Positions 4,668 to 7,345 of a stretch of 44,213 nucleotides of DNA are shown here, in pieces. The first letter of the stretch is position 1, and each line of letters begins with the position of its first letter. A program made the translations under genes and the position numbers. Source of the DNA: an uncultured Microbacterium sp. (GTDB taxonomy: Bacteria > Actinomycetota > Actinomycetes > Actinomycetales > Microbacteriaceae); contig NZ_CAJYPF010000164.1 in the NCBI RefSeq assembly GCF_913776565.1, positions 1-44,213 on the forward strand, in the 5' to 3' direction. Under the pieces are notes generated by a model. It saw only the letters and a program-made list of their open reading frames with translations. It was not told the origin of the DNA and searched no databases.

Positions 4668-5821
4668 GAGGAGTAGGCGCTGTTCTCGTGGACGTAATCG
4701 TGCGTGAGGTCGTTGGTGCGGATCGTCGCGGTGGCTTCGCCGACGCGGAGGTCGATGACGAGGTCGGTCGCCCGGGGCGTGAGATCGACGTCCTCGCGGG
4801 GGCGGTCGGGACCGCCGGCGGTGCACACGCGCACGCCGTTCATCCACACGTCCACGTCGTAGGGGTCGAAGGCGGCATCCGTCGTGCCGATCGCGGCCAG
4901 AACGCGCCCCCAGTTCGGGTCGTTGCCGAAGATCGCGGCTTTGAAGAGGTTGTTGCGCGCCACCGAGCGTCCCACCTCGACGGCGTCGTCCTCGGTCGCC
5001 GCGTTCGTCACGCGGATGGTGATGTCGTGGCTCGCGCCCTCGGCATCGCCCTGCAACTGGGCGGCCAGGTCGTCGCAGACGCCGGCGAGGGCGGCCGCGA
5101 ACTCCTCGGCATCCACCCGGATGCCGCTCGCCCCGCTGACCAGCAGGGTCACCTGGTCGTTGGTCGACATGCAGCCGTCGGAGTCGAGGCGGTCGAAGCT
5201 GGTGCGGGTGGCCGCGCGCAGGGCCGCGTCGGCCTCACCGGCGTCGAGGACGACGTCGGTGGTGATCACCACGAGCATGGTGGCCAGGCCGGGCGCGAGC
5301 ATCCCCGCGCCCTTGGCCATGCCGCCGATGCTCCAGCCCGCACCGACGTGCGCGGCGCGCTTGGGTCGCGAGTCCGTCGTCATGATGGCGAGCGAGGCGT
5401 CCTCACCGCCCTCGACCGACAGGGCGGCGACACCCTTCTGGACCCCGTCGAGCACCTTGGCGCGGAAGACGTCGTCGCCCGTTCCGATCAGGCCGGTGGA
5501 GCACACGACCACGTCGCCCGCGCCCACGCCCAGCAGTTCGGCGGCGCGCTCGGCGGTCTGGTGGGTGGTCTGGAAGCCGAAGCTACCCGTGAAGCAGTTG
5601 GCCCCGCCCGAGTTGAGCACGACCGCTTCGATGACGCCGTCCTTCACGACCTGCTCCGACCACAGGATGGGATTGGCCTTGGCGCGGTTCGAGGTGAACA
5701 CGGCAGCGCCGACCTTGAGCGGGCCGCGGTTGACCACCACGGCCACGTCGCGCGCGCCGGTGGACTTCAGACCGACGGCGACGCCGGCCGCCTCGAAACC
5801 TGCGGGGGTGGTCACGCTCAC
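4664..5821 (-). CDS. argJ: Bifunctional glutamate N-acetyltransferase / amino-acid acetyltransferase
   Basis: [18 protein letters not shown]...[27 protein letters not shown] start overlaps the argC stop. Confidence 0.95.
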
Positions 5822-6867
5822 GGAGCGACTCCGTTCAGGGGAAGGGCGGTGGTCTCGGCGAGGCCCAGCGCGATGTTCATGGACTGCACGGCGGCACCGG
5901 CGGTGCCCTTGACGAGATTGTCGACGGCGGCGACGACCGTCACCCGGTTCGCGGCGCGATCCACGGCGACTCCCATCGAGGCGACATTGGCGCCCAGCAC
6001 GTCGGCCACCCGGGGGAAGACGCCCTCGGGCAGCAGCTCGACGAAGGGTTCGTCGGCATAGGCCTCGACCCAGGCGGACCGGATCTCGGCATCCGTCGCA
6101 TCGCCGCTGATCGGCGCCGACGAGGTGGCGAGGATACCCCGGGCCATCGGCACGAGCACGGGGGTGAAGGAGATGCGGATGCCGTCGCCCGGCGCGCCCG
6201 CCGCGGCCAGCGCCTGGCGGATCTCGGGGATGTGGCGATGCGTGCCGCCGACGGCGTAGGGGTTGGCCGTGCCAAGGATCTCGCTGGCGAGCAGGTTGGT
6301 CTTGGCCGCCTTGCCGGCGCCGCTGGGGCCGACGGCCAGCACCGAGACTACGTCGCCGGGGTCGATGACACCGGCCGCGACGCCCGGGGCGAGCGAGAGC
6401 GCGACGGTCGACGCATTGCACCCGGGGGCGGCGATGCGGCGCGCCCCGCGCAGCTTGTCGCGCTGCTTTCCGCCCGAGATCGGGAGCTCGGGAACGCCGT
6501 AGGCCCACGGCTCGGCGTGCGCTCCGCCGTAGAAGGCCGCCCAGTCCTCGGCGGACGTGAGGCGGTGGTCGGCCCCGGCGTCGATCACGAGGGCGGTGTC
6601 GGCGAGCGCCTCGGTGTACTGCGCCGACTGCCCGTGCGGCAGCGCGAGGAAGACGACGTCGTGCCCCGCCAGGACCTCGGGGGTCGTCGGCTGCAGCTCG
6701 AGGTGCCCGAGCGAACGCAGGTGCGGCTGGTGGGCGATGAGCCGCTGGCCCGCGCTGGAGTGCGCGGTGACCGTGCGGATCTCGACATCGGGATGGTCGG
6801 CGAGGAGGCGGAGGATCTCGCCGCCCGCGTAGCCGGAAGCGCCGGAAACGGCGACCGAGAGGGTCAT
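5818..6867 (-). CDS. argC: N-acetyl-gamma-glutamyl-phosphate reductase
   Basis: [41 protein letters not shown]...APGCNAST. Confidence 0.96.
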
Positions 6868-6949
6868 ACATCTACCTTACGAGTCGGGGCTGATGCTGCA
6901 CGCAGCAGGAAGCGGGGCGGCGACGCCCGTATGCCCGACCGATGGCGGG

Positions 6950-7045
6950 TTACGAGGTCGCCGAGAATCGGCGCTCGACCCGACGTCGACGCGCAGCACC
7001 GGTGCTCACGGAGAGCTCCTCGGCGCGCACGGTGATCGACGACAT
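6950..7045 (-). CDS. Candidate 31-aa arginine-rich leader peptide upstream of argC: MSSITVRAEELSVSTGAARRRRVERRFSATS
   Basis: ATG...TAA ORF 82 nt upstream of argC; preceded by TTGCTC-N18-TACCCT with the ATG 6 nt after the -10. Confidence 0.45.
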   Translation of the reverse strand: MSSITVRAEELSVSTGAARRRRVERRFSATS

Positions 7046-7051
7046 GACGCG

Positions 7052-7081
7052 AGGGTATCGGCCGCGTCGCCGAAGGAGCAA
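7052..7081 (-). promoter_or_regulatory. Putative arg operon promoter (TTGCTC-N18-TACCCT)
   Basis: -10 TACCCT at 7052-7057, -35-like TTGCTC at 7076-7081 on the minus strand. Confidence 0.45.
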
Positions 7082-7133
7082 ATCGCGTGGTGCCGCGCGG
7101 CCCGTCATGCCCGGGGACGGCGCGTCCCGGGCT

Positions 7134-7153
7134 TGTCCCCCATTTGGGGGACA
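7134..7153. repeat. 20-bp dyad TGTCCCCCATTTGGGGGACA (operator-like)
   Basis: Perfect 9-bp half-sites around a central TT, intergenic. Confidence 0.6.
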
Positions 7154-7175
7154 CAGATCGCGTATGCTGTGGATC

Positions 7176-7229
7176 CTGCCCTCATCGCCGGGCACTTCCG
7201 ACTGCCCCCCTTACCGGCGATGAGGGCAG
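7176..7229. repeat. Perfect 16-bp inverted repeat CTGCCCTCATCGCCGG / CCGGCGATGAGGGCAG, 22-nt spacer
   Basis: Arms 7176-7191 and 7214-7229. Confidence 0.8.
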
Positions 7230-7296
7230 ACCTCTGCTCGCCGCTCGGTCGCCGCGAACGCGCGCCGTCGGTCCGCCCCGCGCAAGCGCCGACACG

Positions 7297-7336
7297 CGAA
7301 GAGCGCCGTACAGCATCGGCTGCGCGGCGCTCTTCG
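7297..7336 (-). terminator. Stem-loop downstream of pheT
   Basis: CGAAGAGCGCCG (7297-7308) / CGGCGCTCTTCG (7325-7336) immediately after the pheT stop. Confidence 0.7.
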
Positions 7337-7345
7337 TCATCGAGG

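Follow-up and report, generated by a model that had tools for sequence, protein, structure and literature searches.

An Arginine-Rich Leader ORF Upstream of argC

The question raised by this locus is how the arginine operon of an uncultured Microbacterium sp. is controlled when no arginine repressor can be found in the genome. The operon, argC-argJ-argB-argD-argF according to curated family models, lies within the stretch of 44,213 nucleotides that was analysed (contig NZ_CAJYPF010000164.1; the window), downstream of pheT and of a short ORF that an original prediction, made from the sequence of the window alone, had read as the leader peptide of a candidate arginine attenuator. The promoter-like hexamers, their spacing and the Arg-rich ORF of 31 codons, which ends 82 nt upstream of the argC ATG, were all found where the prediction had placed them (Table 1). 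The product of the first gene matches the argC equivalog model TIGR01850 with 340.6 bits, vs. a cut-off of 233.6. The attenuator itself has gained comparative support from a retained reading frame and retained Arg codons, from synonymous drift, from restriction to argC and from the absence of ArgR. In our view, argCJBDF is probably controlled in cis by this element, a ribosome-mediated arginine attenuator, in a family that lacks ArgR.

Table 1. Features of the pheT-argC gap and of argC in the window.
Feature	Positions	Strand	Basis
Putative leaderless promoter: −35 TTGCTC (7081-7076), 18-nt spacer, −10 TACCCT (7057-7052), 6 nt to ATG (7045)	7052..7081	-	Sequence; geometry kept in relatives
Leader ORF, MSSITVRAEELSVSTGAARRRRVERRFSATS, 31 codons and stop TAA (6952-6950)	6950..7045	-	Sequence; family conservation
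Arg cluster A, CGT CGA CGT CGG	6980..6991	-	Arg kept in relatives
Arg cluster 2, CGC CGA; can pair with TCGGCG (segment B, 6964-6959)	6968..6973	-	Pairing energy; CGCCGA nearly invariant
Segment B, GGCGAC, in the last leader codons, predicted to lie under the terminating ribosome	6957..6962	-	Pairs with C
Segment C, GTCGCC, 3′ arm of the B:C hairpin	6919..6924	-	Position; z-score of the B..C hairpin
C-rich, G-poor stretch from C to the argC Shine-Dalgarno sequence	6880..6918	-	Family base composition
argC Shine-Dalgarno sequence, TAAGG	6875..6879	-	Sequence; AAGG or AGG retained in relatives, including those that have lost the following T
argC (ATG at 6867), first gene of argCJBDF	5818..6867	-	TIGR01850 argC equivalog

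ArgR Is Not Found in the Microbacteriaceae

ArgR control of arginine synthesis is the textbook repressor system. Neither of the two ArgR domains was found in the genome to which the window belongs (86% complete), and the ArgR C-domain model gave no match in 400 Microbacteriaceae genomes from 85 genera; the same model was positive in 23/23 sampled genomes of other families of the order. The positive controls thus worked, and the ArgR that an ArgR regulon would require was not found here. That no argR was seen in the operon segment, as the original prediction had remarked, extends to the whole genome and to the family.

Most of the 13 outgroup upstream regions studied carry a TGTATAGTYATGCAC-like sequence at the argC start, which we take to be ARG boxes. 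ArgR/ARG-box control, which has the same target operon, is apparently what operates in the sister families, where ArgR is present in the genomes; in the Microbacteriaceae, in contrast, the argC mRNA would have a long, ORF-containing leader where the sister families have an operator at the start. Since the family lacks ArgR and has a conserved Arg-rich leader, it is probably the translating ribosome itself that senses arginine shortage and sets the operon accordingly. The absence of ArgR from the entire family, together with the wide occurrence of the Arg-codon leader, looks like a switch from protein-based to ribosome-based arginine sensing.

Conservation of the Leader across the Family

The argC gene was located in 166 of the 170 family genomes sampled, and the upstream regions of 145 family members and 13 members of other families were compared using a detector that required a TANNNT box just before ATG or GTG, an ORF of 10-50 aa and at least four Arg among its last 16 residues. 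The detector was positive in 98 of the 145 Microbacteriaceae regions, vs. 2.1 ± 1.2 after dinucleotide shuffling, and in none of the 13 regions from ArgR-bearing sister families. The Arg-rich leader at argC is conserved across much of the Microbacteriaceae, far above chance, and its Arg codons change synonymously, in line with what had been predicted from a single sequence. Within the genus Microbacterium, nearly all of 30 argC upstream regions (that of the window included) contain such a short ORF, with GATTTGC and a TANNNT box on its 5′ side and Arg clusters such as RRRRxxRRL at its end. The leader of M. testaceum NBRC 12675, MSSITVRTEELFVSTGGERRRRVARRFSATS, is very similar to that of the window, which therefore most likely derives from a Microbacterium related closely to M. 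testaceum.

Counted by genera, the leader is present in 41 of 73, a figure that includes two genomes added by eye for a single genus and leaves out three odd matches discarded in the same way. When the trait was placed on an ArgC tree of genus representatives, about 10 changes were needed, vs. 24 in shuffles. The simplest reading, from a tree of one gene with modest support, would be an early gain of the leader followed by repeated loss, because one early-branching clade is wholly leader-positive. About a third of the family genomes have neither ArgR nor the leader, and control of arginine synthesis by the leader route is therefore not essential to the family. Members of this kind (L098, L120, L124 and others) often have a TAGATTTGACGT-ATG-like start, which suggests a leaderless argC with a simple promoter.

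Two variations on the arrangement were seen. Three leaders (L171, L200 and L235) contain long in-frame insertions upstream of the Arg clusters or inside them (e.g., ..RFLSERSETKGV..), which may be taken as natural evidence that only the C-terminal part of the leader matters. Four loci (L118, L108, L132 and L140) have no separate leader ORF; the end of pheT bears a B-like GGGGCGAC (segments B and C are described below), and a C-like GTCGCC/GCCGCC element lies 3′ of the pheT stop codon, so that in these genomes the tail of pheT may stand in for the leader.

The Element Is Specific for argC

About 85,000 species genomes were scanned with the RNA pattern CGCCGANTCTNGGCGAC-N22-52-GTCGCCG. The scan returned at least 80 loci; 77 among the 80 matches listed lie directly before argC, nearly all of them in Microbacteriaceae. 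In 75 of the matches listed, argC begins 93-150 nt past the start of the motif, and two further listed matches are cut by the end of the locus, yet the same leader and the start of argC are visible. The remaining three listed matches are from Bifidobacterium, from Phycisphaeraceae and from one Agromyces site away from argC. A covariance model retrieved, in the window's own genome, this element alone (53 bits; next match, 26 bits). Outside the family but within the order, the model gave matches of at most 42 bits; those inspected lay in coding-like sequence and were read as chance. As a second target, argG was considered and rejected; it is on another contig behind a short gap only, and no leader was seen before it.

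Probable Translation and Codon Usage of the Leader

Start codons chosen by promoter geometry alone were in frame with the Arg codons in 74/74 cases among the motif matches listed. In the same listed set, the gap between the −10 element and the start codon is 6 nt in 71/74 and the −35/−10 spacer is 18 nt in 68/74; to judge by this conserved spacing, the layout is leaderless. Arg is retained at the three main Arg columns in 63, 69 and 65 of 77 listed matches, the codons drifting among CGC, CGT and CGA. What is kept is thus the frame, the geometry of the promoter and the Arg runs, and the remaining peptide drifts.

These data bear on two alternatives. The first is that the element is purely structural, a riboswitch or a protein-binding hairpin in the 5′ UTR, with the ORF incidental to it. 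CGCCGANTCNNGGCGAC is indeed conserved at the nucleotide level irrespective of where the stop codon falls, but the invariably in-frame starts among the matches listed and the synonymous variation of the Arg codons make this reading highly improbable, and in Rfam the element has no match at the gathering score, only chance-level matches being returned at E up to 1. The second is arrest by the nascent peptide, in which the Arg-rich chain, inside the exit tunnel, would detect free arginine or some other ligand, as with fungal AAP or bacterial SpeFL. Although the Arg-rich C-terminus adjoins the stop codon, the non-Arg part of the peptide is unconserved (MPSAAT.., MLSVRRTPLAL.., VDMIRGTRLGERR..) and variable in length, and the stop codon follows the last Arg pair by one codon or by several; we consider arrest of this kind improbable.

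The original prediction had cautioned that Arg codons are frequent at this GC content. That explanation does not hold, since Arg accounts for 27% of leader codons vs. 4.9% in argC and the otherwise rare CGA is enriched about ten-fold (24.6% of leader Arg codons vs. 3.1% in argC; p 6e-41). CGG, conversely, makes up 7.5% of leader Arg codons vs. 26% in argC, and AGA and AGG do not occur among the leader Arg codons at all. One tRNA-Arg (ICG) decodes CGU, CGC and CGA, and a different one decodes CGG. Because the three favoured codons share the former tRNA, the leader appears to be tuned to the main tRNA-Arg isoacceptor; RNA pairing may account for part of the CGA excess. The locus thus has what is expected of an attenuator, a short upstream ORF with a run of codons for the amino acid of the pathway, whose translation we infer from its evolution.

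Proposed Alternative Pairings around the Leader Stop Codon

Segment B (GGCGAC), beside the leader stop codon, pairs with segment C (GTCGCC), located at a median of 46 nt before argC. The energy of the B:C duplex averaged −20.4 kcal/mol for cognate segments, −18.7 kcal/mol when B and C were taken from different species (p 4e-5) and −12.0 kcal/mol with shuffled C; the z-score of the B..C hairpin is −4.4 in the window and −3.3 on average in the family. Bases pair in 91.5% of the cells; three of the eight pairs show changes on both sides, and covariation counts exceed those of shuffles only modestly. GGCGTC/GACGCC (L111) and GGCGGC/GCCGCC (L084) are clear compensations. As judged from these comparisons, the B:C stem is conserved and covarying. 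The original prediction had instead placed a hairpin (TGCTGC..GCAGCA, 6907-6894) between the leader and the argC Shine-Dalgarno sequence (SD). This hairpin is present, but counterparts occur only in close relatives and it is not a general conserved part of the element; the conserved downstream structure is the stem formed by 6962-6957 with 6924-6919.

Alternatively, B can pair with the last two Arg codons, CGC CGA; the two strands of this predicted stem are present (6973-6968 and 6964-6959), its energy is below that of the shuffled control (p 4e-8), and the pairing is conserved, without a covariation signal. Because the leader stop codon is found at B or just a few codons further on, a terminating ribosome would cover B.

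Several other candidates were rejected. Neither a pairing between Arg cluster A and C nor one that joins A or B to the sequence preceding the SD gave any covariation, and such pairings scarcely rose above the controls, if at all. Pairing of C with a segment D beside the SD was weak (p 0.066 vs. non-cognate pairs). A second leaderless promoter at argC itself (TAAGGT, spaced 6 nt from the ATG like the −10 element of the leader) was dismissed, since relatives that have lost the T still have AAGG and a conserved −35 element is missing.

Model of Attenuation and Its Output Step

In the model that we propose, the mRNA would be leaderless, its 5′ end being the ATG of the leader ORF; this ORF has ~21-35 codons, and CGU, CGC and CGA make up most of its two Arg clusters. 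Under poor charging of the matching tRNA-Arg, the ribosome would halt on the first Arg cluster, leaving B free to pair with C, and argC would be expressed. With plentiful arginine, the ribosome would reach the stop codon beside B and mask B; C and the C-rich tract behind it would then stay open, and expression would be cut, most likely by premature (Rho-type) termination. Arginine limitation is thus predicted to induce argC.

The same sensor could be wired in the opposite way, B:C being a down-regulating hairpin (a U-less terminator or a roadblock) and a ribosome slowed on the last Arg pair covering B and blocking B:C, so that starvation would still turn the operon on. In favour of this wiring, no other pairing comes close to B:C in stability, so that B:C would form by default, and the last Arg pair, CGC CGA, is conserved more strongly than any other and is one footprint away from B; against it, the first and longer Arg cluster is met earlier and would hold the ribosome short of B, and no U-tract follows B:C. 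We regard this wiring as possible, though doubtful, and of the two we lean somewhat towards B:C as the ON state.

With respect to the output step, no terminator-like site with a U-tract was found in 6800-7345, where a classical intrinsic terminator would be expected to show one. A thermodynamic model of 92 leaders revealed no consistent difference in SD accessibility between stalled and terminating states, and no segment is conserved as complementary to the argC SD, so that, in these calculations, no alternative fold emerged that hides the SD. These results speak against translational attenuation, in which the position of the ribosome in the leader would expose or hide the argC SD, as proposed for mycobacterial Cys leaders. 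That mechanism is compatible with the lack of an intrinsic terminator at the argC leader, and leaderless Cys leaders in M. smegmatis are described as translational attenuators (cited in PMC13236596); we nevertheless think it unlikely for argC. Since an intrinsic terminator and conserved SD occlusion are both missing, we infer by exclusion that expression is set by premature, probably Rho-type, termination. The interval from C to the SD averages 44% C and 22% G in the family.

Comparison with Known Leader Systems

The closest parallels come from mycobacteria, in which leaderless short ORFs encode polycysteine (Canestrari et al. 2020, as cited in PMC9094748 and PMC13236596) and a translational output is known (cited in PMC13236596). 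Both systems are actinobacterial and leaderless, place a run of codons for one amino acid before the biosynthetic operon of that amino acid and have no obvious intrinsic terminator. The argC leader differs in the amino acid, in the conserved B:C stem at the stop codon, in showing no sign of SD occlusion and in being tied to a family without ArgR.

Like classical trp/ilv/leu transcription attenuators, among them actinobacterial trp and ilvB (PMC1262725; PMC13236596), the argC leader has regulatory codons in a leader ORF and a stop codon beside segment 2; its predicted 1:2 (Arg pair:B) and 2:3 (B:C) pairings would likewise be mutually exclusive. In contrast to these attenuators, the argC leader has no U-tract terminator and no well-supported 3:4 hairpin, and its start is leaderless. 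A 2005 actinobacterial survey reported leader elements for Trp, Cys and branched-chain/Leu genes and T-boxes for ileS, with no conserved structures for other amino acid pathways (PMC1262725); arginine, in contrast to the amino acids of the classical attenuators, is absent from those reported there. In Salmonella, Arg codons of orf34 report the arginine level for speF, and Rho is involved (PMC6386406). The orf34/SpeFL leader likewise uses two consecutive Arg codons and has no intrinsic terminator, but it controls ornithine decarboxylase (polyamines), has a conserved peptide domain and is not leaderless (PMC6386406); the two leaders are unrelated in sequence and lineage.

A search of the open-access literature, a scope that by itself does not prove novelty, returned no earlier description and nothing relevant on ArgR in Microbacteriaceae or on an attenuator of a bacterial arginine operon. 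A whole family that has dropped the arginine repressor, and a leaderless tRNA-Arg-sensing leader that works with neither a U-tract terminator nor SD hiding, may perhaps represent the first attenuator of bacterial arginine biosynthesis, with an output step not described so far; we put this forward tentatively. Such a leader would bring arginine into the group of amino acids with biosynthetic operons under leader-peptide control and would offer a handle on U-tract-less attenuators in high-GC actinobacteria.

Other Elements of the Window

The gap between pheT and the leader promoter contains a perfect palindrome, TGTCCCCCAAATGGGGGACA (7134-7153), which recurs in relatives L003 and L005 and has a similar counterpart in L002; the only further copy in the window's own genome (G000:C76:821-840) carries 2 mismatches. 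The palindrome is possibly an operator. After argF, an ORF at 438-1670 has no NCBIfam match; its product is hydrophobic and looks like a multi-pass membrane protein. A 16-bp perfect inverted repeat without a T-run (CTGCCCTCATCGCCGG / CCGGCGATGAGGGCAG, 7176-7229) follows pheT and possibly marks the 3′ end of pheST.
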